DNA from: a virus
Length of the DNA: 35,288 bases
IMG/VR virus record: IMGVR_UViG_3300030108_005274
Location: 1 to 35,288 of that record
Reading direction: 5' to 3' (one strand)
The stretch's first letter is position 1. Every line of letters begins with the position of its first letter. The notes under the pieces are model-generated. The model did no database searches, had not been told where the DNA came from, and saw only the letters and a list, made by a program, of their open reading frames with translations. Positions 1 to 32,976 of this stretch are shown piece by piece. Position numbers and translations under genes: made by a program.

Positions 1-627
1 TTATTTTATTTCCTGCATTATATCCAAATGCAAGATTATAACTTCCAGTTACTACATTAGCACCCATTGCACAGTCACCAAGTGCAATATTATTACTACC
101 CGAAGTTACATTTTTACCAGCATAACATCCTAGTGCAATGTTATTAACACCACTTTGAATAGAATATAATGCAAAATTACCAAGTCCCACATTATAACTT
201 CCATTTCCAAGGCAACCAACTCCAAAACCAGCACTATTTCCAATATAAACATTTTCTGTACCAGTTTGTGGACAAGCACCTGCATACCTTCCAATTGCGA
301 CATTATTATTTGTAGTAGTTACACGCAATCCCGCATAAGATCCCAAAAATACATTAGAACTTCCCCCACTCATATCACGACCTGCCTCATTACCAATCAT
401 GGTATTCATGTTGCCACTACTTGTTGCCTCACACATCGCATTAAAACCAATCGCGATATTCTGACCAATACTTGTAGCCTTAGCACCGGCATTTGTTCCT
501 AAAAAGATATTACAATCACCTGAATTCAGGTCGTTACCAGCATTAGAACCTAGAGCTATATTGTAACAAGTATCAGAATCAGAAGCTGCTCCAGCACCTG
601 TTCCTGCATATAAGTTCTCTTGTCCGT
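1..627 (-). repeat. Second block of ~17-residue fibre rungs (NxxxGxxAG)
   Basis: Inside the fibre gene at least 12 consecutive units follow the GDGSALTG motif, each of the form N-[IV]-x-x-G-x-x-A-G followed by 7-9 variable residues and ending in G-[SD]-x. Examples are NIALGSNAG, NIFLGTNAG and NVAIGRYAG. At DNA level the period is about 51 bases and is well diverged. The block continues past the window edge. Confidence 0.85.
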
Positions 628-3600
628 CTGGTGAGAATCCAGCAGAGATACCAGTTAATGCAGAACCATCACCACAGAATTTAGTGGCACTAACGATACC
701 AGAAGCAGCATAAACTGTAGCAATACCAGATAAAGTTACATTAAAGGAACTATTACCATTGATCCAATAATTTGATCCATGACCAATCACAAGTTGACAA
801 TTATCAGTTGCAGAGGGAGCATTTACACAGCAACCTATCATAATATTACAAGAACCACTAGTAAGAAGATGTCCTGCTCTATATCCTACAAGGAAATTAC
901 CTGATCCAGAGGTAACACATTTTCCTGCATCATCTCCTAAGATAATATTACGTTCACCAGTTGAAAAAGTACCAACACCCCCTTTATATGCTGCGAAACC
1001 AATTGCGATATTTTCACCACCAGAACAATGTCTTTGTCCAGCTTGATCACCAATAAAAACATTATCATCATCGTCTACGAGGCACTTACCAGCAGCATCT
1101 CCTATGAGAATGTTGCTAGAACCATTATTAAGAGATCTACCTGCTTCTTTACCTAAAATTGTATTATTACTACCATCAACGATTAATTTTCCTGCTTCAT
1201 CTCCTAAGATAATATTACGTGAACCACCATCTATACATTGTCCTGTATGATATCCTAAGAGTATATTAGCAGAACCACCATCTATATTTTGACCAGAATT
1301 ATGCCCAACAATAAAGTTATCACTACCACCAATGATTGAACATCCTGCATTCTGTCCAAGGATGACGTTATTACTTCCACCATCGATTGCACATGCAGCA
1401 TTTTTTCCAACAATAAAGTTATTACCACCACCAGCTAAACAGTATCCTGCTTTCTGTCCAAAGATAACGTTATCTTGTCCATTTAGTCTATTAACTGATC
1501 CGGCACAGCATCCTATAAGAATGTTATTATTATTAGCTATACATCTTCCTGCATTACGTCCACTTATGAAATTATGGTCTCCAGATAAAGAATCTGTTGC
1601 TGTACAATCTCCAATGTAAACATTGTAACCTTCATTTTGTACTGATTTTCCAACACCAACACCAATAAACACATTATTGTCACCTGCACACATAGCTTTT
1701 CCAGTACAAGATCCAAGTAAAATATTATAACAGGCACTTGTACTGGCAGGTGTAATCGCAATACCAGCCTGAGTTCCAGCAATTAAGTTTCCGTCTGCGT
1801 CTGATTCGAATCCAACACCTGTTAAATTTGAACCATCACCAAAGAAATTAGTGGCACTTACGATACCAGAAGATCCATACATTGTAATAGCAGTGCCTAC
1901 ACTTGAGACACCACTTACATTTAATTGTTTTGTAAATAATGTTTCACCTGTGACTGTTGTGATTCCAGCAAATGTAGAAATACCACCAACATTTAAAGTG
2001 CTAAAAATATCAACAGTTTCTTGAGCATTTATGTTTGGAACATTTAAAGTATTAGTTCCAATTGTATATGTTAAATTTGCAGAACTAGTTAATCTACCAC
2101 CAGATCCACCATACACAAGTCCTGTTCCGGTTAGTGTTTCGTCTTTAATACCACTTCTTGCTGTTATTAATCCTACCGAATCTATATTTGTTACATCTTC
2201 GTATGTTAATGTGCCAGCAATTGAAACGTTACCACTAAATGTTGCAGCAGCACCAGTTATATTTCCAGAAAAAGTAGTTGCAGTTATGATACCAGATGTA
2301 TTAATACTTACTGTTGTTCCAATACCAACTGATTTTTCTTCACCACTTTCGTCGGTAAACTGTATTTCACCTGTCTCTGATTTTTTAATCGTGATAGCAG
2401 TCGTTCCTGATCCAATTTCAATCTCATCTATACCACTTATTTTCTTTTCAGTTGGATTTAGAGTAATTGATCCAGTTCCAATAGTTAATATACCCGTTAC
2501 TCTGGCATCACCATTGACAAGTAAGTCTGTAGTAGCACCACCAACCACAACATTGCCTATTGTGGTAACACCAGTTACCTCAAGATCATTAGCAATCTTG
2601 ACTTTCTTTGTCGTTGTAATTCCAGTATTACTATCAAATGTAGCCCACGTTCCACCAGCACCTGTGGATCCTCCACCACCACTAACAGTTTCAAATACAA
2701 AATTCTTTCCTGCTGGTTGTGATGTATCTACTTTTAAAAACTTACCGTTATATTCACTTAAATCAGTGGCAATACCAACAATATCATCAAGATATTGTAG
2801 TCTTGTTTCACCACCACCACCTAATGTGGATAGTTGTGTTTGAATGCGTCCTAAAAATAATCTATAATGTTGTTGAAGTTGATCTAACGTAACATAATTT
2901 TGATCTAAAGGTGTGAGTGGATCTGAAGTTTTTGTAGATGGTAGTGTTTCTTCAATTAAAGTTTCATTTATTTCACTCTCCTTTTTTAAATTTTCATAAA
3001 CTTCCTCAAGATGTTTAATTTTTGTTGAAAGAACAAAATTTTCTTTTTCTATATCTTTAATATTTAATTTATCAATTGTATCTTTAAAAGATTGTTCAAT
3101 TAATAAAATATTATCATTCTGTTCTTTTAAATTATTTTCACCACGAACTATTTCAATTTCAAGATTTGTAATTTTTTCAGTTAAATCTTTATTAATTGAT
3201 TTATTAACCTTTAAGTGTTCAATTACATCTTTCTTAAGTTTTTTAATCTCATTTACTTTAGTTTTTATAGTTTTAGATAAACCATCATTACCTGAATATA
3301 AATCATTGATTTTATTTTCTAAATTTGTAACAACTTCATTTAAATTTTCTTCTGTTTTAGATTCTATCTCAAACTGTTTTGTATCAATATTTGTTGAAAC
3401 TTCATCTATTAATTTAGAGAATTCTTCTTTAAATTGATTGAATTTTTTATCTGACCTTACTTCAGCATCAATTATATTTTTTTTATATTTTGGTAATTCT
3501 ACTTCTGCAAATTCATTAACTACCTCAGTTACATCTGTGACCTTGGACTTTATCTCAGTTAATGTTTTTGTATTAATACTTTTTACATTATCTTTTAACG

Positions 3601-3856
3601 TGTTTATATTTTCTTCTAACAAAAAGACATACGACATCATCGCATTGTCAAGATCCTCTTTTTTAAGGAAATCTTGCAATTCTGTTTTTATTTCATCTAC
3701 AATTTTAATTGTGTCAGTTATCTTATCAAATTTTGATAAGTGTTCTTTGAAAGAGTTAAAAGCCTCTGAGTAAGAATTTAAATTTGGTTTACCAACTAAA
3801 TTCTCATTATCTTTACTTTCTTCTTTAAAGTAATCTGAAGGTTTTTTGATCCCCAT
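1..3856 (-). CDS. Giant tail-fibre-like protein, partial (C-terminus beyond left edge)
   Basis: An uninterrupted minus-strand frame starts at the ATG at 3856, two bases after the gp16 stop, and stays open for 1285 codons to the window edge. The N-terminus is MGIKKPSDYFKEE. Residues ~20-320 are rich in K, E, N, L and I with heptad character, so a long coiled coil is likely. A Gly-rich linker follows (GGGG at ~347 and ~392). Fibre modules come next, including YEDVTNIDSVGLITARSGI near residue 550, a motif recurrent in marine T4-like phage fibres, and two copies of a GDGS-x-LTG motif (~675 and ~1060). Each GDGS motif precedes a block of ~17-residue NxxxGxxAG rungs (about 18, then at least 12). 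I infer a trimeric virion fibre or adhesin that touches the host surface. Proteins with such rungs often end in an intramolecular chaperone, which would lie outside the window. The target is unknown. Confidence 0.85.
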   Translation of the reverse strand, partial: MGIKKPSDYFKEESKDNENLVGKPNLNSYSEAFNSFKEHLSKFDKITDTIKIVDEIKTELQDFLKKEDLDNAMMSYVFLLEENINTLKDNVKSINTKTLTEIKSKVTDVTEVVNEFAEVELPKYKKNIIDAEVRSDKKFNQFKEEFSKLIDEVSTNIDTKQFEIESKTEENLNEVVTNLENKINDLYSGNDGLSKTIKTKVNEIKKLKKDVIEHLKVNKSINKDLTEKITNLEIEIVRGENNLKEQNDNILLIEQSFKDTIDKLNIKDIEKENFVLSTKIKHLEEVYENLKKESEINETLIEETLPSTKTSDPLTPLDQNYVTLDQLQQHYRLFLGRIQTQLSTLGGGGETRLQYLDDIVGIATDLSEYNGKFLKVDTSQPAGKNFVFETVSGGGGSTGAGGTWATFDSNTGITTTKKVKIANDLEVTGVTTIGNVVVGGATTDLLVNGDARVTGILTIGTGSITLNPTEKKISGIDEIEIGSGTTAITIKKSETGEIQFTDESGEEKSVGIGTTVSINTSGIITATTFSGNITGAAATFSGNVSIAGTLTYEDVTNIDSVGLITARSGIKDETLTGTGLVYGGSGGRLTSSANLTYTIGTNTLNVPNINAQETVDIFSTLNVGGISTFAGITTVTGETLFTKQLNVSGVSSVGTAITMYGSSGIVSATNFFGDGSNLTGVGFESDADGNLIAGTQAGIAITPASTSACYNILLGSCTGKAMCAGDNNVFIGVGVGKSVQNEGYNVYIGDCTATDSLSGDHNFISGRNAGRCIANNNNILIGCCAGSVNRLNGQDNVIFGQKAGYCLAGGGNNFIVGKNAACAIDGGSNNVILGQNAGCSIIGGSDNFIVGHNSGQNIDGGSANILLGYHTGQCIDGGSRNIILGDEAGKLIVDGSNNTILGKEAGRSLNNGSSNILIGDAAGKCLVDDDDNVFIGDQAGQRHCSGGENIAIGFAAYKGGVGTFSTGERNIILGDDAGKCVTSGSGNFLVGYRAGHLLTSGSCNIMIGCCVNAPSATDNCQLVIGHGSNYWINGNSSFNVTLSGIATVYAASGIVSATKFCGDGSALTGISAGFSPDGQENLYAGTGAGAASDSDTCYNIALGSNAGNDLNSGDCNIFLGTNAGAKATSIGQNIAIGFNAMCEATSSGNMNTMIGNEAGRDMSGGSSNVFLGSYAGLRVTTTNNNVAIGRYAGACPQTGTENVYIGNSAGFGVGCLGNGSYNVGLGNFALYSIQSGVNNIALGCYAGKNVTSGSNNIALGDCAMGANVVTGSYNLAFGYNAGNKI
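920..953 (-). repeat. 34-bp direct repeat, copy A
   Basis: These 34 bases match positions 1187-1220 with one mismatch (A versus T at the ninth or tenth base). They encode the rung segment RNIILGDDAGK. The other rungs are far more diverged at DNA level. Confidence 0.9.
1187..1220 (-). repeat. 34-bp direct repeat, copy B
   Basis: Partner of the repeat at 920-953, in the same frame and 267 bases (89 codons, about five rungs) away. It encodes RNIILGDEAGK, so the single mismatch changes Asp to Glu. Confidence 0.9.
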
Positions 3857-3858
3857 TA

Positions 3859-4293
3859 TTAAGACTTATCATTTAAACTAGTATTATTATTTAGAAGACC
3901 ATCTTTGAGCAGTTTTGACAACTCAGCAGTTGATCCTACAAACAAAGAATTATTTGTGACATTATTCGTTGTTTTCTGAATGTCCTCTTCAACTTCTTTA
4001 AGTTTTTTCTGTAAGTCCATTAATTTATCCGTGCTATCCGCAACTGATTTTATTAACTGACCTGCAACTTCATATGCTCTAGGACTCGCACTCTCACCGG
4101 CAACCTCCATTATACCATTTATTGCTTCTTGACCCTTTTCTATTAAGGAATACAACTGTCCTCTAGTATATTCATAATCTTTATCTACATCATTCTTATT
4201 TTTTGAAAGATTTAGTCTTTTCTCTTTCACAGGTTCAATTTCAACAGAATCTGTATTAAATGTTTTATTTAATGAATTAAATTTATCTTCCAT
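3859..4293 (-). CDS. gp16: Terminase small subunit, T4 gp16-like
   Basis: A protein of 144 aa; T4 gp16 is 164 aa. After a polar N-terminus, residues ~40-115 form a helical region (YTRGQLYSLIEKGQEAING, then SPRAYEVAGQLIKSVADST and a K/E-rich coiled coil) that matches the central helical core of T4-type small terminases. This subunit forms a ring that recognises phage DNA and regulates the large terminase gp17 during head filling. It lies six bases after gp15 and two bases before the fibre gene, within the T4 order 13-14-15-16. The large terminase, which normally follows, is not in the window. The family call rests on the motif pattern and the gene order. Confidence 0.85.
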   Translation of the reverse strand: MEDKFNSLNKTFNTDSVEIEPVKEKRLNLSKNKNDVDKDYEYTRGQLYSLIEKGQEAINGIMEVAGESASPRAYEVAGQLIKSVADSTDKLMDLQKKLKEVEEDIQKTTNNVTNNSLFVGSTAELSKLLKDGLLNNNTSLNDKS

Positions 4294-4299
4294 AATTCA

Positions 4300-5097
4300 T
4301 TATATATCCTTTTGTTGAGTTGGACTATATGTCTTACCATCAGAGAAGAATGAAGTTGTTTCACTGAATCCAAAATCATCATCAGGTCCTGCCGTGATTG
4401 GATCAGGTTCAACAGTGTATCTGACCTCACGTTTTTTATTTTTAGTATCGATATCAGTATGATAATCAATTTGTGCTTTCTTAATAATGCCTTGAGAAGA
4501 ATCTGGGACAGGTCCAAATAGATATGTTTTTGCTGTAAAGGATAGTGTGTATATTAAAGCTCTTCTAGTGGAAAAGTCACCTTCATAATCATCTTGAAAA
4601 TTTATTGAATCTAAAACTATTGGTATATCTCTTTTCTCACCAATAGAACTTACTAGATCTACTGATAAATTAAATGATGGTTGAAAGAATGGTAGTATTT
4701 GCTCAACAATTTGTAAAGCATCATCATTTATCTTTGTTAATATATTTAATTCAAACCCTATATTATATGGAACTGGCATGAAAACTTTTTTTATTTTTTC
4801 TCCATCTGATGCTTTGAATGTTTGTGTTACTCCAGTTTTTCTTGTTGAATCATACGTAACATTTGTCATTTCAAATGACATGCGAGGTAATGTTATTTGA
4901 ACTGGTTTATTTAAATCTGCTTGTTGTTCTAATCTTGCTAAGAATTTCTGTGAAGGACCATATGCCAAAGGAACTTTCATTTCACTATAAGTATCACCAT
5001 CTTTATCATCATGTCTGATGTAAATTGCATTAAATAATGTTCCAAAAGATATTATCGTCTTTCTAATTATTTGATGATAGTAGTAAGTTCCTAACAT
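4300..5097 (-). CDS. gp15: Tail sheath stabiliser and completion protein, T4 gp15-like
   Basis: A protein of 265 aa; T4 gp15 is 272 aa. The N-terminus MLGTYYYHQIIRKTIISFGTLFN is characteristic of gp15 in marine T4-like phages, as is the following region around KVPLAYGPSQKFLARLEQQ. The C-terminus is acidic and low in complexity, ending near GRKTYSPTQQKDI-like residues. In T4, gp15 caps the tail by forming a hexameric ring on the last sheath ring and joins it to the neck proteins gp13 and gp14. The ATG shares one base with the gp14 stop codon, which suggests translational coupling. Homology is well supported by length, N-terminus and position. Confidence 0.9.
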   Translation of the reverse strand: MLGTYYYHQIIRKTIISFGTLFNAIYIRHDDKDGDTYSEMKVPLAYGPSQKFLARLEQQADLNKPVQITLPRMSFEMTNVTYDSTRKTGVTQTFKASDGEKIKKVFMPVPYNIGFELNILTKINDDALQIVEQILPFFQPSFNLSVDLVSSIGEKRDIPIVLDSINFQDDYEGDFSTRRALIYTLSFTAKTYLFGPVPDSSQGIIKKAQIDYHTDIDTKNKKREVRYTVEPDPITAGPDDDFGFSETTSFFSDGKTYSPTQQKDI

Positions 5098-6527
5098 TAA
5101 AATGTACCAAATGGATTTCCTTCTGAGAAGTCAATGATGTCATCAGCTTCACTTTCGATTTCATCACCCTTATCATATTTATCAGCAAATTCTGCTGATT
5201 CTATAAAATCAACTGTAAATCTAGCATTAGAGGTCGCTCCAATAGCAACATCTCCTGCGACAAATGTGCCATCAGTTGTTCCCAATTTTAATATATTATT
5301 AACAGTATCCCATGATTTAACTCTACCCTTTGCCCCAGATATACTTCCAGTTATTTGCTCGTTAAATATGTAAGTTCCAACACCTGTAATAACTGGTGGT
5401 GGAGATATTGTTGCAATACCAGTTCCTGAAGTGTAACCTATACCAGCATCTTCTAATAATATTTGATTTACAAAACCATCAGTGCTTATACTTACTCTAC
5501 CAACAGCAGTTCCAACACCTGATGTAGGTGTGTTAAAGAATATGATTGGGTTTCTCGCATATCCACTTCCACTTGAGGCAATGCTGATTGCACCTACACC
5601 TGCAGAATCAGTAACGAGAACAGCTGTTGCTGCTGCACCAGCACCGTATGATGTAGATCCGACACCAGCGATAGTTGAGGTTGCACTTACGATAGTCACA
5701 GTTGGTGTAACAGTGTATCCTGCACCTGGATTTGTTATTAATATTTCTTTAATTGATTGTGATCCTAATATGGAGGTAGTGATTGCTACAGCAGTTGCAT
5801 CAACACCACCAGATGGTGCAGTTGATATTGATACAGTTGGAGTTTTTGAATAATCGAATCCATCATTATTTAAAATTATATTTCGAATATAACCAGCACT
5901 CGTAGTGATACCAACTGTTGCAGTTGATCCAATTGAAATTAATTGTAATGATGTTATATAACCTTGATCAACTAAGGTATCATCAATCATTTGTGTGGTT
6001 CTATTAATTTCATCCCAACCACCAATTTCATCTGAAAGTTCAAATAGTTCACATTTTAATTGATAAACATAATTTTTACCTAACTGATAAAATGGGTCTT
6101 CATGTTCAACAAATTTTATTTCAAATAGTCTTTTACCTAAAGGGAAAAATATTAAATCACCTTCACTCGGTCTCGTAGATACTTCAACTTCACCAGCGGG
6201 TAAAGACCCTAAAAATGGTGATATAAAGTCTTCAAATCTCTCTCTTGAAATAGTTACTGTTAATTCATCCTTTAAACTCATTCCAAATTTAGTTAAAACA
6301 TCTCCAGCACCAGAATAACCATCATATGTATTAACATATGCCTCAATTAAAAAGTTATCATTAAATGAAGAGGACTGAATTTCAGTTAATATTTGATCTT
6401 TTTTAACTATTTTACGTGGTAAATATACAATTTCAACCCCATAAATTTGCAACTGCTCATTTATGAGACTTTGAACTAAACGTTGCTCACTTTGTGATCC
6501 TTGTAAGAAGAAGGGATTTAATGCCAT
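5097..6527 (-). CDS. gp14: Neck protein, T4 gp14-like, enlarged by repeat modules
   Basis: A protein of 476 aa, almost twice the T4 gp14 length (256 aa). Residues 1-190 match gp14 of marine T4-like phages (MALNPFFLQGSQSEQRLVQ, then RERFEDFISPF and FFPLGKRLFEIKFVEHEDPF). Residues ~213-375 are an insertion of four related units built around [NS]xGxGY followed by xxPTVxI (NNDGFDY, NPGAGY, SSGSGY, DAGIGY). Residues ~380-440 hold a second module, FNEQITGSISGAKGRVKSW to GDVAIGATSNARF. The acidic C-terminus NPFGTF resumes the core. gp14 helps complete the head and joins it to the tail. The gene shares single bases with the gp13 stop and the gp15 start. Confidence 0.92.
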   Translation of the reverse strand: MALNPFFLQGSQSEQRLVQSLINEQLQIYGVEIVYLPRKIVKKDQILTEIQSSSFNDNFLIEAYVNTYDGYSGAGDVLTKFGMSLKDELTVTISRERFEDFISPFLGSLPAGEVEVSTRPSEGDLIFFPLGKRLFEIKFVEHEDPFYQLGKNYVYQLKCELFELSDEIGGWDEINRTTQMIDDTLVDQGYITSLQLISIGSTATVGITTSAGYIRNIILNNDGFDYSKTPTVSISTAPSGGVDATAVAITTSILGSQSIKEILITNPGAGYTVTPTVTIVSATSTIAGVGSTSYGAGAAATAVLVTDSAGVGAISIASSGSGYARNPIIFFNTPTSGVGTAVGRVSISTDGFVNQILLEDAGIGYTSGTGIATISPPPVITGVGTYIFNEQITGSISGAKGRVKSWDTVNNILKLGTTDGTFVAGDVAIGATSNARFTVDFIESAEFADKYDKGDEIESEADDIIDFSEGNPFGTF

Positions 6528-7372
6528 TATCCAATCATATCTAGTGGTGGGAGTTCATACTCAAGCATCATTCTTTCTCTTAAACTTTCTAATTCTCTCA
6601 CTGCATCCTCATAAATTTCTCTTCCATTTAATTCAATACCACCTGGTAATTTAACACCTTTAAATTTAATTAAATTTTGTCCCCACTGTTTTTTAATTAG
6701 TGCAGTAGCGTATCTTTTCAAAAATAAATCATTTAACATATTAGTAAAATCATCAGGGTTCAATGCTCTATAACATTCAATAACTATAAAAGAACCTACC
6801 TCTTGTGCTTTCCAATCAATATCCAAATATAATCTGTCTGTCCTCATATTAAATCTTATTTGTTTATCTGTAGTCAATAGAAAATCAATATCTTCAAGAT
6901 AAGTTTTTGTCATAGAGTATTGTAATAGATCAATAGAATTAAATCTGTACAAATCATTTAAAAATAATTGATACTTTATACTAAACATTCCACCAGAGAT
7001 GGTGCTTGAGTCAAATTTAAAAACTCTTTCAATCCCTAAAACAGGTTCAGGAACCTGTATGAAATTAGATGTCTCAACCCAATTACTTTGAATATTTCCA
7101 AAACCACTTATATCCGTAGAACCTCCAGTGGTGGTTACAATACCAACTCCTGTTGTTCCAGATGCTTTTCCTCTATCTATATCATCTTGAGTAAGTTCAT
7201 GCTTTAAATATACCTTCTCAACACCATTATAATGCCTTTCATTGTAAAGTTGTCTTGCATCATCCAATGCATCCTGAATTTGATCGTCATCAACATTTAT
7301 CTCTAATACTGGAGCACCTAGTTGTCGCAAACAATAATCAACAAATTCTTGTCTATTACTAATTAATGCCAT
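6527..7372 (-). CDS. gp13: Neck / head completion protein, T4 gp13-like
   Basis: A protein of 281 aa; T4 gp13 is 309 aa. The N-terminus MALISNRQEFVDYCLRQLG and the helix DDDQIQDALDDARQLYNERH are the standard signature of gp13 in this phage group. The middle and C-terminal part (FNSIDLLQYSMTKTYLEDID, then RALNPDDFTNMLNDLFLKRY, and a Leu/Glu-rich end) is also family-like. gp13 forms the neck ring with gp14 on the filled head, where the tail docks. A short Gly/Thr-rich loop at residues ~70-90 is probably lineage-specific. The gene shares one base with each neighbour, in the late structural run. Confidence 0.92.
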   Translation of the reverse strand: MALISNRQEFVDYCLRQLGAPVLEINVDDDQIQDALDDARQLYNERHYNGVEKVYLKHELTQDDIDRGKASGTTGVGIVTTTGGSTDISGFGNIQSNWVETSNFIQVPEPVLGIERVFKFDSSTISGGMFSIKYQLFLNDLYRFNSIDLLQYSMTKTYLEDIDFLLTTDKQIRFNMRTDRLYLDIDWKAQEVGSFIVIECYRALNPDDFTNMLNDLFLKRYATALIKKQWGQNLIKFKGVKLPGGIELNGREIYEDAVRELESLRERMMLEYELPPLDMIG

Positions 7373-7767
7373 CAGAAAGATCCTCCATCTAAAGATGTAA
7401 TGTCACCAGTAAAAGTAACAACACCACTTGTTGCTGTAATAATACCAGAATCCACTTTAACTCTATTTAACGTACTTATACCGCTTACATTTAATTCACC
7501 AATAGACCCTAGATCTGTAGCAACCACTCCACTTAGTTGACTTCCATCTCCTAAGTATGTAACAATTCCAGTTGTGGAAGATATAATTCCACTTGAAACT
7601 GTTATGATTCCCAGTGTGGATACACCACTTACAGATAATGTAGTGACAGAGGCAATACCACCAATTACATTTGTGGCATTATCTGATTGTTGTGGATTTA
7701 CGGATGGTTGAGTCGTTAAAACCTTTATTGCAGGTGAAGGTCCTATATTTGAATTAATTTCTGACAT
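7372..7767 (-). CDS. Small fibre-like virion protein
   Basis: A protein of 131 aa with a Pro/Ser-rich N-terminus (MSEINSNIGPSPAIKVLTTQ), then two copies of a fibre-type strand unit: VSGVSTLGIITVSSGI with IVTYLGDGSQLSGV, and VSGISTLNRVKVDSGI with GVVTFTGD. The GDGS-x-LSG motif is the same one that introduces the rung blocks in the large fibre at the left end of the window. I infer a small structural protein, perhaps a short fibre or an adaptor that trimerises with fibre chains. It lies between a 112-aa putative structural protein and gp13 and shares one base with each. No enzyme motif was seen, and the function is not known. Confidence 0.65.
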   Translation of the reverse strand: MSEINSNIGPSPAIKVLTTQPSVNPQQSDNATNVIGGIASVTTLSVSGVSTLGIITVSSGIISSTTGIVTYLGDGSQLSGVVATDLGSIGELNVSGISTLNRVKVDSGIITATSGVVTFTGDITSLDGGSF

Positions 7768-15963: not shown

Positions 15964-17583
15964 TTAAAATTCAAGAACGATTTTTACATCTTCTTTTTGC
16001 CTAGAGTTTCTTTCGACCAATTCTCTATTATCAATGTAGATAATATCTCCTGTTTTTTTATTTATCTCCTCCTGAGAGATTCCATTTGTGAAAGTAACTC
16101 CTAAATTAATTATTTTGTTATTAACAACTGTTGTGATACCACTAAAAGTGGTATCAACAGATTTTGTAAATGCTAGATCAGGATCTGTGTTATCTGATAT
16201 AATAGATTCATTTGATGACTCAAATGCTATGACTTTTGATTGTGTTGACGTATTAGGATTATCAGTTTGATCATTTCCATTTACAAAGTATAATGATCTA
16301 TCTTGGTAAAATTTTAAAATTTTTGTATCTTTATCATAAGAGGAAATATATCCTCTAGCAATTCCATTTGATGTTGATTGTGTTATTCCAACACCAATTA
16401 ATGACTTAGTGATGCCTATGTCTGAAGTTAATTTTAATGAAGATAGTGAACTAAATTGATTTAAAGTAAAAGTAGCAGCAGAACTTACTTGACTGGGATT
16501 TTTTATGATTCCTATCTGTGAAAACTTAGTATCTGTTGGAAAATCTTTAGTGGAATCATCAAATCTAGCATAAATTAAAACTTTATCGGAACCTAATTCT
16601 TTATATACGTTATGTCCGTGTCCTTTTGAAGGTGGTATGATAGGAATTAGTTTTGCTGCGTTTTCAACACTTAGACTTGCTTGAGGATTTAGTTGAACTG
16701 TTGATAAATCTACCACACCAAATGTATAACCTGAACCACCTGTTGTAACTTTTGCACTTGAAATTTTTCCAGTCGTATCAACTACAATTTGAACCTTTCC
16801 TCCGGTTCCGTCACCTAAAATATCAACCTCATATGTCCCTGTTTGATACACAGCATTTACACCACTGCCAGCATTTTCAATATAAACTTTTTTAATCTGA
16901 TTTAAATTTAAATCAGAGTTTCCTGATTCTCTTACATTTTGTATTTGACTATCAGTTGATGTTTCCCAATCATTTGGTAATACTATGAATTCAGTAGAGT
17001 CAAATTTAATGATGTCTGATGGTGATGCCGTAAACAAATATTTCCACAAGTACCCATCACCACTTGTTCCAGCAGCAGTAACTTCTAAATCAGTAAATGT
17101 AGGTTCATCAACAGATACGTTTCCCTTTACATTTGTACCACTTGATCCATTATCAATACAGACATAAACTTTAAAATCACTATTTACAACGTAAAAATTT
17201 GAATCAAATAAATTACCCGTATCACTGTTAGGAGCTGGATTGACTATAGTTTGGTAATCATGACGATACATATCGTATCTAGTGTTTGAAACCCAATTAT
17301 GTCTCTTTACAACTCTACGTATATTAGCACTATTTATTTTTTTACCAAATAACATGGTATCTCTATAATGACTGAGATATTGTAAATTATCTATAGGTGC
17401 AGGTGTTTGAGTTTGCCAATCTGCAGTTCTACCGAAACCCACAATCGTGTTTGAAAATGGTATTTTTCCAAATGGATTTGCTAATCCTAAAAATACATAA
17501 TATGAATCATCACTTGTCAATACTGAATTAACAAAATTATTAGCATTAAATATTCTGAATTGATCTGTTACAATTGCTGGCAT
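15964..17583 (-). CDS. gp8: Baseplate wedge subunit, T4 gp8-like
   Basis: A protein of 539 aa; T4 gp8 is 334 aa. MPAIVTDQFRIFNANNFVNS, then YYVFLGLANPF, is the usual N-terminus of gp8 in marine T4-like phages. Residues 60-120 (DNLQYLSHYRDTMLFGKKI, RRVVKRHNWVSN) and 315-365 (PPSKGHGHNVYKELGSDKV, then KFSQIGIIKNP) are further conserved blocks. Two [NT]xGSGY-like units at ~238 and ~283 belong to a module shared with gp14 and the giant proteins, and explain part of the extra length. gp8 dimers form the wedge that links gp6, gp7 and gp10 in T4. A perfect late promoter lies just upstream, inside the end of the noncoding gap after the 4216-aa gene. Confidence 0.88.
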   Translation of the reverse strand: MPAIVTDQFRIFNANNFVNSVLTSDDSYYVFLGLANPFGKIPFSNTIVGFGRTADWQTQTPAPIDNLQYLSHYRDTMLFGKKINSANIRRVVKRHNWVSNTRYDMYRHDYQTIVNPAPNSDTGNLFDSNFYVVNSDFKVYVCIDNGSSGTNVKGNVSVDEPTFTDLEVTAAGTSGDGYLWKYLFTASPSDIIKFDSTEFIVLPNDWETSTDSQIQNVRESGNSDLNLNQIKKVYIENAGSGVNAVYQTGTYEVDILGDGTGGKVQIVVDTTGKISSAKVTTGGSGYTFGVVDLSTVQLNPQASLSVENAAKLIPIIPPSKGHGHNVYKELGSDKVLIYARFDDSTKDFPTDTKFSQIGIIKNPSQVSSAATFTLNQFSSLSSLKLTSDIGITKSLIGVGITQSTSNGIARGYISSYDKDTKILKFYQDRSLYFVNGNDQTDNPNTSTQSKVIAFESSNESIISDNTDPDLAFTKSVDTTFSGITTVVNNKIINLGVTFTNGISQEEINKKTGDIIYIDNRELVERNSRQKEDVKIVLEF

Positions 17584-17614: not shown

Positions 17615-20600
17615 TTATATAAGATTAGTTTTTAATGCTCCAGTTTTTCTGAGAGTATCGTCTCCTGATCTTCTAATCACAGTTGGGAAGGTTGATAATC
17701 CCACATCAACAGTTAAACCTGTAACTCCAATTGATATTGGATTCGAAGACCTTGATATACTTGATATTTTTCCTAATGAAAATTTACCAACTGGTACACC
17801 AGCAGTCTCAGTTGTTGCTATCCCAACTGTATTAGTGTCAATGGTGCAAGTAATAATACCAGTGATAACATTACCTCCTCCAACTACCCCCAACGTTGTT
17901 ATTCCTGCAACGATATAAACATTATCAACAAAAGTCGTACCAATACCTACTACATTTGTATTTGTTACATCAGTCGATGTAACACCATTTCCAACAGTGG
18001 TGTCATATACGAATAATGGATCACCAATTGTGATAGGTACTAACCCCTCAGTATTTATACCTGTAAATTTGATTGCTAATGCTGAGTTGAATATTGTTGT
18101 TCCTATACCTGTTATAATACCTGATGTATTTTCAAAAACAATACTAGTACCAGTTATTGTTTCATCAACTATGGGTGATTTAGGAGCAAGAACTTTAGGT
18201 GGATTAGTATTTGTGTAACCTGAACCAGGATTTGTGATATTAATTGGTAAACTAACTGATCCATTTGTTATAGTTGCTGTTGCAGTTGCAGTTGTTCCAA
18301 ATCCAATTGTTCCATCATTCATTGTAAAAGATGTAATTCCTGTAGTGGGTATGCCTATTGATAACTGTATTGTTGATTCGGTATATCCAGATCCAGCATT
18401 GACTATACTTAAGGATTGAATTGTTCCAATTCCTGATACAATAGCAGTTAAAGCAGCTGCTACAGGATTACCTACCCCTGAAACTAAAGTTAAATCGAAA
18501 TTTGGACTAGATTCATTTTCATAATTAAATAATGATGCATCATCGACAAATATTTCTGCATTAGAATTTGTAATATTACCAATCACCTTCGCAGAAGGAA
18601 AAACTAAAGTCTCAATTAATTGTCTTGTTTTTGGAATTTTTTCATCATTGACAGCTAAATCTCTCTTTTGTTTTAATAAATCTAAAGGTTTAAAATCAAC
18701 TTCATTTATTCCCTGACCAAAGTAAATATTTGTTTCAATTTCGTCTGAGTCTTTTATATCAAAAATTACTCTAGGATCTTGAGATTTACTGGTTACTAGA
18801 CCTGCGTTTTTAACTATTTGAACTGTATCACCTTTTTCAATAGGTGATGTCTCAGCATCTACTTGTATTGAATCTGTTCCAGCAGTGCCTCTATAAAAAT
18901 ATATTTGTATATCATCATCTTTTTCTGGTGGAGTTGTAAATGTTAAAGATGTGCCACCTTCAAAGACATAATTTTTAGTTGGTTCTTGTAGAACACCATT
19001 TCTAAAAATTATTAAAACATTTGATATATCACCAGTAAATAAATTTCCTTCCTCTACACTTATTTGCTCTTGATTGTATTTAATAGGAAATCTTACTCTT
19101 GATCCGTTTTGCAAATCCTTTATTGAATCAATAAAATCAAATTCTCCAAATTGGAAAAAACTAAATCTATCATTAAAAATTCTTCTTACCTCTAATTCAA
19201 AATTATGAATTGGTGAAGCAAAATTTCGATCAGTGACAAGACCAACTACCGTAAATTTGTCACCAAATTTAAATGCATTTCCATTTCCATTTACTTTAAA
19301 GTTTTTAACTTCAAATAAGGTAGAGCCTATGCCAACATTTGTCGAAACTGCTCCTACATTCAAATCAACTGTTATGTTTTCACCAGTATTGGTTGTCAAA
19401 CCCTCTCCAAGTCTTGAAATTCCTGTTATTCCTAAACCAGAGTATGAAGGTGAAGATACAAAAATTTTCGGATCTTTATAGTTTGAACCTGCTGCAGCGA
19501 TTGTAAAAATTACCGTTCCACCAATTCCTGCTATAGCAGTTATATTTGCACCTGATCCTACATTTGTACCAACATTAACACTAAATCTGTCATCATCTAC
19601 TTTTGTAACACTTAATGATGCACCACCTCCGGCAGGGTCAGTGGGTCTAGGATAAGGGTGATCGGAAAAGAAATTATCTTTAGAACATTTAAATATAATT
19701 GAATATTGATCCAAAGTTATAGTATCACTTGTTGATAAATCATGATCTGCCACAGTGAACGTAACAATTCCTGATACAGGATCATAGATAGCATTTGTGG
19801 GTGTTAATTGTGCTAGATAACCACTGGTTCTATTAATAGCACCAGTATTTGCAGATACAAATCTATGAATATAACCTGGATCAAAAACTGTGACTCCAAT
19901 ACCACCAATTCCATTATAACCTGATCCAAAAGTAAGATCTCCATAGTATGGATATATTAAACCCGATGGTCCAGATGGTGATGGATTGTATAAATGCGAA
20001 GTAGCTCTTACACCAAGATTTACTCCAATTATGTTAGTGGCTGCAACAGAGACAACTGAGAAAGTTCCTCCAATCGATAGACCTCCACTAAATGGTACAT
20101 TTATTAATTGAACTTCATCTTGACTCTGTTCACCAAAAACCCAATCAGGATCGATTTCAGTAGTAATTGTGCAAATACCAGTTGTCCCGTTATAAAAAGC
20201 TGTAATAATACCTAATGATGCCCCAGTTGTAGCAACACCAACAATTCCACTAATTTGTCCACTATTTAAGACAGGTCTTACTTTAGCACCTGCTAAAGGT
20301 GCAAATCCTAATCCTGAACTTGATCCTAAAGATACTATGACACCTCCTCTTGGTAGTTGATTTTGATTAACATCCTCATCACTTATTACAAGTTCGTTAT
20401 CAACAGTTAAACCAGTAAAGTTTATAGTGGTAACACCCGCATTTGAATCTTGAGTTACATTAAAATTACCATTAGGATTATTAAATGTGGATGGATTTTG
20501 GAAAATACCATTTAAAAGCATTAATCCATTTCCAGTTGTTCCAACTCCAATCGTGTTTGCACCTCCAACAGTTAGATTAAATGTTGAATTAATACCTGTA

Positions 20601-23600
20601 AATTTATCTGAAATATCATCAAATATCACATTTGTATCATAATTATTTCTAAAGTATACTCTACCTGCAAAAGTTGAACGTGGAAACGGTAAATTACTAA
20701 AAGTATCTGATCCTTGTGGATTTCCTATTGGAGAATTTGTAAAATGAATTGTGCTTTCTTCAATATTAAATGAACCTGTAAAAAACTTAATAGTGGTTGC
20801 ATCATTATGAGAAGAAGATTTACTTCCTAAAGAGGCACGATCAACTTGAATTAATGGAAATGTTCCAATACCTGGTGTAATTGGTCCTGAGAAAGAAGTT
20901 CCTACACCGACATTGTTTATTATCATAAACTCATCATCAATTTTAATTACATCTTCAATTAAAACAGACGAAATACCACTAAGTGAAAATATACTACTTG
21001 AAGCACCAATATTACCATTGTTATTAAGAAGAGTTTGAGTTAAATTTTTAACTGCTATCGGATCCTGCATCAATCCATCAATAGTAATAATTGATTTTTC
21101 ATTTCTCTTTGACATGGTAAATTTGTGAGCATTTCCTTCACCTAAGTCTGTAAATGTAACTGCAGTTCCTGCCCGTGTCGTTGAAATCTGAAAAGTATTT
21201 TCACTAGTTTTAATACAAAATACATTGCTTACCTCTGTTAAAACAGTGTTTATACCTGCTGATACATTTTTGTATACGAGTGATGATGTTCCAACACCAA
21301 CAACTGTTGAATCTGGTTTATACACCAATTCCTCATTATTTCTGAAAAAATGATCATTTATAGTAAATATACCAGTCGATGCTTCTAAGGTATTTGATGG
21401 ATTAAAAGTTTTACTAAAAATAGGGATATCATTTGATTTTAATTTAAAATCAGTTTTGTTAATTCTTACGCCATTGACTGCATTAAAGAATTTTAAATCA
21501 ATCGACTCTCTTATTGAACCATACTCAAAATCATTTGCCACATTTTCAGTATCATTTAAATTATAAAAACATTGATTAAATGTTTTTATAGTGCTTATAC
21601 CAGTCAAATTATCAGGATAAAAATTAATTTTGACATTGGATCCGTCATATACTCCACCAAATGTTCCTAGTCCAATATTATCATCAAATAATGATGTAGA
21701 TCCAACTGATAAAAATTGTGCTGGTTGAGTGAAAACTTGAGATCCATCATTTATCGAATAAACTTGATGTAAAGCTTTGGAAGATCCTATGCTTACCTCA
21801 ACAACTGATTTAAAAGCATTGAATAAATTTTTATCTAAATCGATTATTGAAGTTGTTCCTATACCTGCTGTTGTTATACCTTGATATAAAACACTTCTCT
21901 CTTGTCCTCCTATTTGATCATTAGATAAAAATCTATGCTCACCATTTCCTAATCCAGTTGTTCCAATACCTATTACTTTTGATTTTATTAATAAAACTTC
22001 ATCTTCAGTATCATTATAAAAACTTAATGATAGATTACCATTTGATAAACCACCACTAAAAATACCTACTCTATCATTAGTAATATTATTATCTGAATAA
22101 TATTCAGAATAATAAGAATTAACAGTATCATGAGTTAAATATGATTCAATAAATTCAACCTCATTACTTGTTATGATTTGTGTATTTACAAAGTATGATT
22201 CAAATTGATTAGATGGAAGTGAAACAATCGTTGACGTAATTCCCGGTTCAACTTTACCTTCCGAGGATAAAATTCTGATAACACCTAAACTTTGTGAACT
22301 AATTCCACTTGTGGTAGGTGCTGAAATAATTTGGTTAGAAGAAGTAAATTTATTTTCTATTATTTTAAAATCATAATCGGTACCAAATTTATCTTTGGGA
22401 GTATATCTTAATACATTATCTCCTGCTTCATTTGTTGCGATGGAAAAATCTCCAAGTGTTTCATTTTCTGCAGTAATTTGATTATTTCCAATGTTATTTA
22501 ATTTAGATTTAACAATTAAAGCATTTTTTGATCCATCAGCAGCATCTGGTGAAATTAGTAATATTACTTCTTGTAATTCTAACTCTGTTCCAATAAAACT
22601 ATTCACTCTAACGAGAAGGTTTGTAAAGGATTTTACTTGATTTAAATTTAAAATATCTAAAAATGTATCAGGTTCTCCGTCAGTATTTGAGAATTCTTTA
22701 CTTACATCATCAATAGTAAGAACATTGTTAGTGTTACATTGAACATAGTCAGTAAGTCTGATAGTTTTTAACTCTAAAAACTTTGAAGAATTATTAACGG
22801 GATCTTTATCTCTTGATAAATCAATATTTTTGATAGTATCAACCCTTTTATCGTCAACTATGTTTATAGTAATTGATGTTATAGATGTAGATCCTATTCC
22901 AACACTTGTTGATGATGAAATTTCAGTATCAGCAAAATTTTTCAGACCTGAAGTATGAAGTATATCATTAACAGGAGTCTCAAATTTATTCCATGGTATT
23001 TCACTCTTAACAGAATATGATAAATTTTGATAATAATTATTATCGGAAGTAACCTGATTATCAACACTTAATTTACCAACTTCATCATCCCATCCAATAT
23101 TTTTTCTGGTTGAAAAATCTATTTTAAAAATACCTTTACTTTCGTTTATTTCTCTTACTTCAGCTTTTGAATTTGAATATTGACCAACGATAATATCACC
23201 TACTTTTAAGTCATATGAACCAATAACTTTAATATAATTATCATTATATTTTGATATGAATAAATCTTTGATTTGAGAATTTACCTTTAATCTTTCTCCA
23301 TCTGTGAATTTAGATTTGACTATATTATAATCAAAAGTAGGATATCTGGATTTGTTGATGATAGTAGCAAAATTATTTTGATTTGTAACTGCAATTCCTA
23401 CATATGTGCTTACACCTGTATTATCAACACTACCTGTAGTGGATATTCCTAATACAGAGACAATTACTTTTCTTGGGTTTGTATTTTTATTATATTCAGA
23501 TACTCTTAAGAAAGAATATTTATAATCGGATGAATTATGTCCACTACCAACAAAAGGTAGATTTTCTCCAGTTTCATTGTTTACTCCGACATATCTTTGA

Positions 23601-26600
23601 ACTCCCTCTATAAAAACTTCATCTCCGGCTGCAAAAGGTTCAATATTAAATCCATTTAATGGAGTTGATATAAAGCATGTAAATGAAGTTCCAACACTGT
23701 TATCAAAATCAATTGATTTTATAGAAACACCATTAGTGTTATTTGTTGTAATTATTTTTACTCTCTCATCAGGTAATCCATTTGGTTTATCATTAATTAT
23801 AACGTTTGATATTGTACTTTGATTCATTACAACTTCTAAATATCCACTGTTTATTTCTAAACCTGTATTTGGATCAACGATTATTATTTTAGGAGCATCA
23901 CTATAATTTTGTCCCCCAGATGTTACAGTGATAATTCCTATAGTATTTCCATTTGATGTCCTAATTATTGGAGATACGGGTGCACTAGGGTTTAAAGTTT
24001 TATCTGTTGAGTATTCAAAACTATCATTTAAAATTCTTACCTCTTTTATTTTACCTATTGAATTTGATAGTAAATCAACAGTTGCATCTGAGGCAATCGT
24101 AGAAGACGATCCAGAGAGCACTGGGAGTTTTTTATATCCTGTTCCCCCTGATACTAATTGAACATCTCCTATGCCGTCTTGAGAGGAAATAGAAGTTGTT
24201 TTATAAGAAATTGATTTTGATTTAGAAATTATATTTTGATTAAAATCATTTGTATTATAAGATAATCTCTCTGGATTTTTATCTAAAAATATATCAAATG
24301 TAGTTGAACCAATTGATGAAACTTTGTAATCTCCAGTGTAATTACTGTTTACATAATTTATTTGATTATTATCAATTACTTCTGTGTCTACTGTATTGAT
24401 ATATCCAGATTTTTCTAAATTATAGTATAATTTAGAGGGTAATGAAGTGGAAAATCCAACAGTCAATGATGATCCTACTCGAATCACATTAAATTCAGTT
24501 GATGAACCTGCTGATATGATTTCATTATTAAAATCATTATCAAAATATACTTTAAATTCATAATTATTAAGTGAAGAATCTGATAAATCAAAAACAATAT
24601 TATTATTTTTTACCACATCTATACGTGGATTTATTTTAGATAATGTCTGTGTTGATCCCCCAGTTGAACCTAACCCAACTACTACTGGAGGTTTACTTTG
24701 AGAATCAAGGTAACTCTCTGTAAGTTTAAAATTATTATCATCAACCTTAAATACAAAATATTCTTTATTAACAAGACCTTGTGGTGCTAAGTTAGAATTG
24801 TATTTTATTTTATCCCCAGTATTTAAATTATGGGATTGTACAGTAAAGGTGTTTGTGGTTGTATTAATGCCAGTTGAATTTAATCCTATTTGATCAAATA
24901 ATAGATATCCAGTTCCTAAATCACGTTTAACACTTACTGTTGATAGGGTTCCAATCCCTACATTCAAACCAGGTTTAACATTTAATGTAATTTGATCATT
25001 CAATGATAAAGTATGTGAAGTGCTTAAGGTTACCTTTGTATTAAATTTTTTAATATTTCCTGTAATCTGATTGAAATCACTTTCGAATAAATATTCATCA
25101 CTATCATTACCAACAGATATTGATCTAAAAAATAATTCACTAAATGTTGCACCAATTCCTGTTTTTAATCCTATTAAATCTTTCCCACTATTAACAACGT
25201 GTAAATTATTTGTTGGTAAATTAAATATTGCAGATGTTGGAGTTGTTGACACAGAAATTTGAGATTTACCAGTTGGTATCGATAAATTTATTTTTTGATT
25301 ATTAAAGAATGGATGATTACTTAGTAATATTTTTTGTGTAGGTATATTTCTATTAACTGTACTATCCAAAAATACAAAGGAAGTCTGATGATTAAATCCT
25401 GGTGTAGTGCCAACTCCAACAGATTTTGTTGGGTTGAAAAATATTTTATCATTTCTCTTAGAATCGAAGTATGATACTTTTTCATTTATTGTAAATGTAT
25501 TTGATTCAAAGACAATTGGTGATGTAGCTGAATGTGAAGTTCCTGTTACTGACCTTTTTATTCTCAAAACATTGTTATCAAAAACATTCAAAATTTTCAT
25601 TGTTTCGATGCCAACTCGTATGCTTCCTCCTATTGATACATTTTCAGGTATACTTGATACAGTAATTTCTGTTGTCAAACCTGCAGTTACAGTAGAATTG
25701 ATAGTTGATATATTTTTTGATACGAAAGAAGATACCCCTATTATATTAAACTGATCTAAATTAATAATATCTGTAGATAATCCTGACAATACCACCGAAT
25801 CTTTATTATTTAAATTGTGTGGAATATCAGTATCAACAATTAATTGATCTTGATTCCAAATTAATATTGCGTTATTAATTTGATTAACTGTGGTATCAAG
25901 ATTTGTTATCTCTTTACCCTTCAATTTTGATACTCTTACATTCAATCCATCACCACTTGTGTTCGTATTGTCAAAGATTAAATTATCATTAACTTTATAA
26001 TTTTGCCCTGAATTAACAACTTTTATATTTTCCACTGTCCCCGAAGACACAGATTCTACTATGCTTTTTTGTTGTGTTATCTCATTAGTTTCAACTAAAA
26101 AATCATTATCAGCAAAAGAATCTGATACTTTATATGGGAATGTATTTCTTTTAAAACTGGAAGAATTCAAATCGTATGATTGATTGAAAGGTGAGAAATT
26201 AGATTCAATTGATTTTGATCTAAATTTATTACCTATAAAATATGGGAAAGTTGAAATTCCAGCATTAGTAATAGTTGCATGATAAGCATATACACCATTT
26301 GGAAAATCATCATTGATTTCATATCTACCGTTAAATATATCTAAATCACCACTATCATCAAATTTATAATCTTCTACAAAAAATTTTTCTGGGAAAACTG
26401 TTAAACTCGGTCTATCAACATAATTCGTATCAACATTGTAACTAGATGTCAATAATCTTACTGAACCACTTTTATCTGCGTTCTTACCATAAGGACCATA
26501 AATTGGGTTGCCATCATAAGCCCAACCTATGATAGGTGATGCTTCACTACCTCCATCATCAAACGTAACAGTGCTATATCCACATACAGTATACTTTAAT

Positions 26601-29600
26601 TTACCTTCACCTTTAGATAATGATGCATTTGTTGAATTATTATAATTTTTGTTTAATGATAAAGATCTGACATCTGCATCAAAAATAAAATCTGATCCTG
26701 AGGGTTTAACAGTGATCGTGGAATCAGTTGAATATCCTAAACCAGGATTAATTACAATTACATCAGTTATTTTTTGATTTGTTATTATTGGTCTTAATAC
26801 TGCTCCAGATCCGTTTTTATCATTAACAATAAGGTCAGGAGATGAAAAGTATTCCGTTCCACCATAATCAATACTAACAGAATCTACTTGACCATTAAGT
26901 ATATTTAATTTTAATGCAGCATCTTTTCCATTTTTTATTGAAATGGTGGGTTTTTTATGGTAATTTAATATAGTTGAACCATATCCAGTGCCATTCTCAT
27001 AAAGATATAAATTTGTTACAGAACCTTTAACCACAGGGGTCAATTCAACTGTTTGTAGTGAAGTCGTGCCCAGACCAACCGACGTGAAATTGATAAATGC
27101 CTTTATTTTTGGATAACTAAATTGTTGAAATCCAGTTCCAGTTGATGATATTTCTACTATGTCATCTCTTTCAAAATTCGAGGTAATTGTACCACCAATA
27201 CCTGCATCATATAATTGAAATTTATTTTCATCTAATTTTTTTACAAAATAATCATTAGTAGTGCTTAGTCCAGAAATGAATTCAGGTTGTGTTGTCCCTA
27301 ATCCAACAGCATTGGAGTATTGAACTACATCACCAGTTTCAAATCCGTGATTTGTAAATTGAATTGCATTATAATTAGTTAAAATTCCAGTTGGTTTTAC
27401 TAATAGTTTTTTATTTCTATAATTTTCACCAGGATTTATTACTTTTACCTCTGACAAATTATTTTTTGATGAACTTAATCTAAATTTTTGAATGCCACTA
27501 CCACCACTCACTAGATTAATTGGATTTGTGCTTGTCCTTTGATCTTCAGAAGTATTATATAATCTTATTGTCTTATTATTAAGAACTGATGCAAAATAAT
27601 TTGCACCACTTAGTAAAGTTGTTGATGCAATGGACACAGAAGTGTTATTTTGATTATCGTATACAATCTCCTGACCATCAACAAAATTATGCTCTTTTAA
27701 AAATGTTATTGTGTTTATTGAAGTATTAATCCCACCACCAGTTAACGTTGTTCTTGAATCAAAAATAACACTTCTAAATCTTTTAACAATAATTGGTTCT
27801 AGCACACAATTAGAACCATTACCACCAGTCACTCCTATTGAAACTACTTCATTTATATCAAAATCTTGAGGATCTACAAAAACTGTTTTAACAGATCCAT
27901 TTATTACTGGTTGAACTAAAGCAGTTGTTCCTATTCCAGTTGATACTGTAAATTTTGGTTCATCTACGACATCAAAATTAGCACCAGCACTTAAAACAGA
28001 AGTTGAGTTTAAAGGACCAAAATATACTTTATCATTTGATTTATAATTTGATATTTCAACACCATTTATTAAAATTCCTATTTGACCTGGATTAGTGGTT
28101 TCACCTTTTCCTGTTGATAAATCTTGTTTTAATGGGAATTTTTTTAATAATTTTTGAGGTGTAATTAATTTATCTTTATGATCAATTAAAGTAAATACAT
28201 GAGTAGAAATTCCAGTGGGTGGTGTGAAAGATATGAACGAATCACTTGGTATGCTAGATCTTGAATTGTATAATTTAATCTTTTTTGAATTATCATCTAT
28301 TTTATTTTTTATAAAATATGAACCTGTCTCAAGTCCAACTAAAGGTTCACCACTTGGTTGATAAAATACCTCTGTTCCGGTTAAAAAACTAACATTTTCT
28401 TCAAATGTTATGGTTGTAAATTCTTCTAAATCATTTTTATCAGTTAATTGACCTTGAGTGTTAATTCCAATCCTCAATGTTTCTTCATTTATCCGTGTCT
28501 CAATCAATTCTGTAAATGGAAATTTTTTAGTGATTAAACTCTCATTATAAGATGGTAATGAATTTGATGCCACATAAGCAAAATCATCAAATTCATCAAT
28601 ATATACATTTTGAATATCTGATGTAATTATATTATTTCCATATGATATTTGTGCAGCATTTACATCGGAAAATGCTTTATTAAGTTTTCTGCGTATTTTA
28701 TATTTTTCACCTGTTGTTCGTATAAAGTCAAATCTTTCTAAACTTACGGTATTATCATCAATTATTTTATTTACGTAAGGAATATCATCATTATCTAGTG
28801 GATATACAACTTCATTTGTTCCCGTTTTTAATAACTCTATTTTGTCTCCTTCTTTTAAACTTGATTTGTCAATTTTGCTAAACAAGGTTATGGTAGAACT
28901 ACTAGTAAATTGATCTATTTCATAAGTTGAACTAGTATTATAAATCCAAGAATTTGCAAATGTTTGTTTATAATTTTTTACTGTAGGATTTATTATTTTA
29001 TCACCGATACTTTTGACAAATAATTCATCATTTTCTTCAACATCCAACGATGATATATTTTTATATTCATTTAAAACACCAGTAAATCTTAATTCTACTT
29101 TTTTACTTAGATCTCCATTTTCATAAGCATAGTAAACTTCACTAGATCTAATATTATCAGTTGGTGAAATTGTTGGTACATCTTTACAATCTAAAAATTG
29201 ATTAACTGTTTTACTACCATAAGAAAATGTGTTTGATCCAGAAACTAATAATCCTGATGTTGCAAATCCAACAGTTGAATCTACAGTAACAACTGATGAG
29301 TCTTTTGATATCGTCTCAAGACATTTTGTATTAGGAATTATGGTAAAATCATCAGATATTTCTGATTCATTATTAAAACCAACAAAAAGTTCAAATTTAA
29401 AATATTGTTTATCATTTCTTGTGAATGGTTCAACCTGTGAAATAGATGTATTAATATCTAAATTCAAATCACTTTTAAATAATGATTGACCAATGAGAAG
29501 TAAAGGATTTCCTGATATTACTTCTGCAATCGCAACATCTCTTCTCACATACTTTGCTGTCGATGGTTTAATCAGAAATTCTTCTAAATTTATTACTTTT

Positions 29601-32640: not shown

Positions 32641-32976
32641 TTAACGATTGATTGTTCTTATCTTATAATCGTCCGTATCGAAGTGAAAAATGAGCTCATT
32701 TGCAACTTTTGTAGGTGAAGAAGACCCACATGTGAAGATATCAACTGCTGCACAACCTTTTTCTGGCCAAGTATGAAGAGAAAAATGACTTTCGGCAAGA
32801 GAAATGTTAACAGTTACTCCTTGTACCGGAAAAGAGTGACTAAAAACGTTCAAAATTTGCATTCCTTCGTCCTCAACAGCTGAAATCATGATTTTTTCAA
32901 GATTTTTACGATGATTTAGCAAATAATATGAGACATCATAAAAATTTATCAACAAATGTTTTCCCATTTTTGACAT
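32641..32976 (-). CDS. speD: S-adenosylmethionine decarboxylase proenzyme
   Basis: A protein of 111 aa that decarboxylates S-adenosylmethionine to supply the aminopropyl donor for spermidine synthesis. It matches the short prokaryotic pyruvoyl-dependent enzyme. Self-cleavage is expected between Glu62 and Ser63 in AESHFSLHTWPEKG, and Ser63 becomes the pyruvoyl group. His68 and Cys83 (FTCG) fall at the catalytic positions. These numbers equal those I recall for the Thermotoga enzyme, in which Ser55 assists processing; here position 55 is Thr. The protein lacks the ~20-residue C-terminal tail of many bacterial homologues. Phage speD is known from T4-like cyanophages, where it probably raises polyamines during infection. 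It starts one base after the 243-aa gene and precedes the late promoter of gp25. Confidence 0.95.
   Translation of the reverse strand: MSKMGKHLLINFYDVSYYLLNHRKNLEKIMISAVEDEGMQILNVFSHSFPVQGVTVNISLAESHFSLHTWPEKGCAAVDIFTCGSSSPTKVANELIFHFDTDDYKIRTINR

Follow-up and report, generated by a model that had tools for sequence, protein, structure and literature searches.

In phage T4 genes 16 and 17 overlap. For cyanophages the interval between gp16 and gp17 (here called the slot) is listed as a hot spot by Sullivan 2010, who credits Millard 2009 (PMC3037559), and a review that likewise cites Millard 2009 speaks of 4 to 14 genes inserted between g15 and g18, at a position unique to cyanophages (PMC2984593). 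The passages of these papers concerned with the interval lay stress on metabolic genes and hypotheticals. Among the publications listed for gp16, gp17 and tail fiber in cyanophage none was, by title and abstract, about this arrangement, which is described in papers on hyperplastic regions. Homology identification of the tail-fibre genes of T4-like cyanophages is stated to be difficult in the relevant sections of two papers (PMC2993671; PMC2984593). In the Synechococcus phage Bellamy (MF351863) the slot gene gp121 is annotated as a putative tail fiber and gp17 is found further on; S-B05, likewise a Synechococcus phage, carries between gp16 and gp17 an ORF (QCW22875.1, 517 aa) with a solenoid of NxxxG repeats.

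We have analysed a long fibre frame in a stretch of 35,288 nucleotides (the window), which is the single contig of the IMG/VR virus record IMGVR_UViG_3300030108_005274 and ends inside the fibre gene. It is quite likely that this frame is the 5′ part of a gene for a cyanomyovirus virion fibre or adhesin, located in the variable gp16-gp17 slot and evolving by module exchange.

Gene order around the fibre frame

A first-pass annotation of the window had described a partial fibre of 1,285 codons that starts two bases past the stop codon of gp16 and is cut off by the contig edge. The ORF list of the window confirms both the two-base spacing from the stop codon to the fibre ATG and the open end (Table 1), and the fibre was rightly called partial since the record consists of this contig only. 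The 3.8 kb following gp16 are taken up by the single fibre frame without gp17, and on the other side profile matches give the cyanomyovirus order gp16, gp15, gp14, gp13 and baseplate genes. The match of gp16 to Pfam DNA_Packaging was barely above the cut-off; its closest public sequences belong to Synechococcus phages, Prochlorococcus phages and single-cell marine viruses. The fibre frame matches the fibre and tail families phrog_30742 and phrog_4636.

The window also encodes a baseplate wedge protein of 4,216 aa (17615-30265, minus strand; phrog_2885), occupying more than one third of its length. A homologue of the auxiliary metabolic gene speD, for S-adenosylmethionine decarboxylase, adjoins gp25 (32641-32976, minus strand; phrog_3125, E=3.9e-32).

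The gap between gp16 and gp17 was measured in 27 public records, which cover T4-like cyanophages and single-cell marine viruses (296-9,684 bp, median 4,004), and in 38 further-compared loci (603-7,980 bp). The two sets overlap in six isolates (L002-L007), and the second includes another copy of Bellamy (L128) and some near-duplicate contigs, so that the counts are not independent; gp17 did not abut gp16 in any record or locus of either set. In a further contig, G002 (L196, L197), the interval reaches 11,845 bp (positions 17357 and 29202) and holds several fibre-like genes in series, including one KKPGDFF gene. Because of the measured gaps and the published hot spot, the premise of the first-pass annotation that gp17 normally follows gp16 fails for cyanophages. 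Its statement that the fibre occupies the slot of gene 17 holds against the T4 order, from which the window differs in having the fibre frame after gp16, but not for cyanomyoviruses, and the packaging pair that it took to be split by an insertion is simply in the normal cyanomyovirus arrangement. The split is already known and is not peculiar to this phage. If it were a special feature with a consequence for packaging control, as the overlap of the two genes in T4 might suggest, neither the gaps found in the records and loci compared nor the hot spot as set out in the passages cited above would be expected; we consider this reading extremely improbable and reject the split as a feature special to this phage. 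The locus shares with the hot spot, as those passages present it, the position, the variable content and, in relatives, a downstream gp17, and differs in having, as the first gene of the slot, one for a long fibre rich in repeats.

The window is one of seven contigs that end inside the fibre (the others being L008, L088, L089, L090, L091 and L094), which fits assembly trouble in the repeats and raises the question, already put by the first-pass annotation, of whether the frame is an assembly chimaera wrongly joined to gp16. The junction recurs, however, in eight contigs from several samples (L008 and L088-L094, with L092 and L093 near-identical), all having gp16 and, within a few bases, a fibre with this N-terminus, which in L008 is 97% identical to that of the window; more distant relatives also retain the order. 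Since near relatives carry the same junction, the join is not chimaeric; the probability that we would still give to such an artefact is negligible, and it was ruled out.

Domain organization of the fibre

The features of the frame are collected in Table 1.

Table 1 Features of the fibre gene and of its neighbours in the window
Feature	Coordinates	Strand	Residues and remarks
Fibre gene	2..3856	(-)	1,285 codons, starting with ATG; open at window edge and lacking its 3′ part
MGIKKPSDYF N-terminal segment and heptad-rich stalk, probably coiled-coil	2927..3856	(-)	aa 1-310
Conserved collar DPLTPLDQNYVTLDQLQQHYRLFLGRIQTQLSTLGGGGETRLQYLDD	2657..2926	(-)	aa 311-400
Shaft, without heptads, mosaic between relatives	1841..2656	(-)	aa 401-672; phrog_30742 tail fiber; module switches
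GDGSNLTG motif ahead of repeat block 1	1817..1840	(-)	aa 673-680
Repeat block 1, rungs mostly 17 residues	797..1789	(-)	aa 690-1020
Inter-block linker QLVIGHGSNYWINGNSSFNVTLSGIATVYAASGIVSATKFC	674..796	(-)	aa 1021-1061
GDGSALTG motif ahead of repeat block 2	650..673	(-)	aa 1062-1069
Repeat block 2, truncated by window edge	2..616	(-)	aa 1081-1285
gp16, terminase small subunit	3859..4293	(-)	phrog_445 E=1.5e-53; Pfam DNA_Packaging
gp15, tail sheath stabiliser	4300..5097	(-)	phrog_227 E=5e-102; Pfam T4-gp15_tss

The heptad periodicity of residues 21-300 was equalled by 5 of 1,000 shuffled sequences and 37% of the residues in this stretch are charged, a composition and periodicity that probably match those expected of a coiled coil. 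Beyond residue 650 the strict pattern NxxxGxx[AGST]G occurs 23 times, mostly at a spacing of 17 residues, whereas 1,000 shuffles gave 1.0 on average and never more than 5. The shuffles thus bear out the heptad-rich N-terminus and the two NxxxG blocks that had been noticed at first pass, and the GDGS-x-LTG motif said to introduce each block is indeed there, at aa 673 (GDGSNLTG) and aa 1062 (GDGSALTG). The N-terminal segment and stalk have homologues among slot fibres. The collar stretch (aa 300-400) is 93-97% identical to that of L008, L089, L090, L091 and L092 and occurs also in slot fibres having other N-termini, while the inter-block linker recurs in L008, L090 and L092.

For block 1, taken as a single chain, AlphaFold2 predicted a solenoid (mean pLDDT 77.5, pTM 0.75) whose two ends were of low confidence. 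This model is matched at E <= 0.001 by 80 viral models, including S74 fibre proteins and the putative proximal tail fibre of P-SSM2, and its best solved match is the head of BpaC (PDB 7o23; Foldseek E = 0.078, TM 0.40, probability 0.98). By fold comparison the block would share with the YadA-type head of trimeric autotransporter adhesins, to which BpaC belongs, a beta solenoid of stacked short repeats. It differs in its mostly 17-residue rungs and in being part of a phage gene with no detected autotransporter part and no YadA Pfam match (no YadA head repeat was found in the window up to E 0.1), and the weak resemblance may be read as "works like" and not as membership. Sequence searches of solved structures gave no match for the distal part of the window fibre and one weak, chance-like match for the tip region of L092.

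Probable exchange of modules between close relatives

The DNA of the window and of L008 is ~94% identical through gp15, gp16 and the start of the fibre, and beyond it matches only in patches. In the protein, residues 1-300 of L008 share 97% identity with the window and 68% with L092, whereas for its residues 400-525 the values are 94% with L090 and 38% with the window, and for its residues 900-980 they are 90% with L091 and 67% with the window. Residues 400-525 of the window are in turn 99% identical to L089. Close relatives switch modules at sharp boundaries. This mosaic fits module exchange, which we favour because fast divergence alone would hardly explain why a relative less similar at the N-terminus should be the closer one in a distal segment; recombination may take place at the collar or the linker. 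A more far-reaching proposal, which we put forward as doubtful, is that the KKPSDYF fibre is one of the main fibres by which this cyanophage group recognises its hosts, and that collar and linker act as recombination joints by which whole repeat blocks are exchanged.

Slot fibres of relatives and the distal end

Genes sharing the collar or the N-terminus are present between gp16 and gp17 in six loci (L002, L096, L102, L121, L124 and L148). Bellamy gp121 resembles the window fibre in lying directly after gp16, in a shaft segment that is 56% identical and in having gp17 downstream; it differs in its length of 850 aa, in its N-terminus and in the lack of repeat blocks. The repeat solenoid of S-B05 is, unlike that of the window, a separate and shorter ORF, 36% identical and not directly after gp16. 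The more distant KKPxDFF fibres of L192 and L194 share the N-terminal family and the collar and belong to the same cassette, where they are placed downstream of gp16, but have only 436-487 aa, no repeat blocks and a Peptidase_S74 C-terminus. Known relatives, Bellamy and S-B05 among them, hence carry slot fibres with gp17 downstream, which the first-pass annotation had named as a finding that would refute its view of the locus.

The complete 1,943-aa fibre of the IMG/VR contigs L092 and L093, directly after gp16, is the nearest guide to the missing 3′ part: it has an N-terminus 74% identical to that of the window over 390 aa, the collar, the linker and the repeat blocks, and differs in having three blocks and a complete tip, its last 140 residues matching phrog_5906. 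In L092 the strict repeat pattern occurs 33 times and the GDGS motif three times. Should the window fibre be of similar length, the frame would represent about two-thirds of the gene, its 5′ part. A Pfam search of the complete L092 fibre detected no domain, Peptidase_S74 included; the model of its tip (pLDDT 38) was too poor for use.

In L092 and L093 the fibre is followed by a lectin-like ORF, an ORF of 97 aa and the first part of a phrog_727 protein, which in L092 stands at the contig end and is near-complete. The L192 homologue of the lectin-like ORF matches Laminin_G_3, and in Bellamy the phrog_727 protein directly precedes gp17. Ahead of gp17 in G002 there are an L092-type tip (89%), as the end of a 1,057-aa gene, the lectin-like ORF (73%), the small ORF (75%) and then one more ORF. 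There was no terminase match in the records of L092, whose contig ends before the expected position, and L192, and one in that of L190. From these relatives we infer that gp17 of the window phage would be downstream, past the end of the fibre and a few more genes.

Proposed role of the fibre in the virion

In the mechanism that we propose the KKPSDYF segment and the coiled coil would probably fix the fibre to the virion; they would be followed by the near-invariant collar, a beta-rich shaft, stacked solenoid blocks joined by the conserved linker, and a tip beyond the contig. The fibre would most likely be a trimeric adhesin meeting the host surface and would diversify as modules of the shaft and of the repeat region are swapped at conserved joints. 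A putative host-range role is plausible. Indirect support for the proposed function comes from a YadA-domain protein of cyanophage S-TIM4 in which mutations arose in the course of host adaptation (PMC6224464).

Genes with the same N-terminus that lie outside the slot count against the fibre reading: one in S-SKS1 (L106 8001-11564), near photosystem and sugar-metabolism genes and annotated as baseplate wedge subunit, the other in B23 (L107 9001-11631), after the portal gene. Their location and the S-SKS1 annotation would allow another attachment site and another role for the window fibre. The S-SKS1 homologue would suit a structural whisker, collar or baseplate fibre, with the host receptor recognised by another fibre, and so would the neck-whisker gene wac of T4, which is also located in the structural cluster and which, together with several T4 tail-fibre genes, is reported missing from cyanomyoviruses in the section of the review on this point (PMC2984593). 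Yet relatives that are otherwise near-identical keep the N-terminus but differ sharply in their distal parts, as is more typical of an exposed part that serves recognition, and in relatives a lectin-like ORF comes after the fibre. We regard a purely structural protein as unlikely and prefer the virion fibre or adhesin that evolves by module exchange. With its recognisable N-terminus and collar and its visible module boundaries, the family offers a concrete candidate for adsorption tests.

Two other proteins of the window have sequence in common with slot or baseplate proteins. Residues ~257-331 of gp14 (5097-6527, minus strand) match, at 37-39% identity, a 599-aa slot protein of L190 and L194; a neck protein and slot proteins therefore have a common domain. 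A 131-aa protein (7372-7767, minus strand) contains one GDGSQLSG motif and matches baseplate wedge families.
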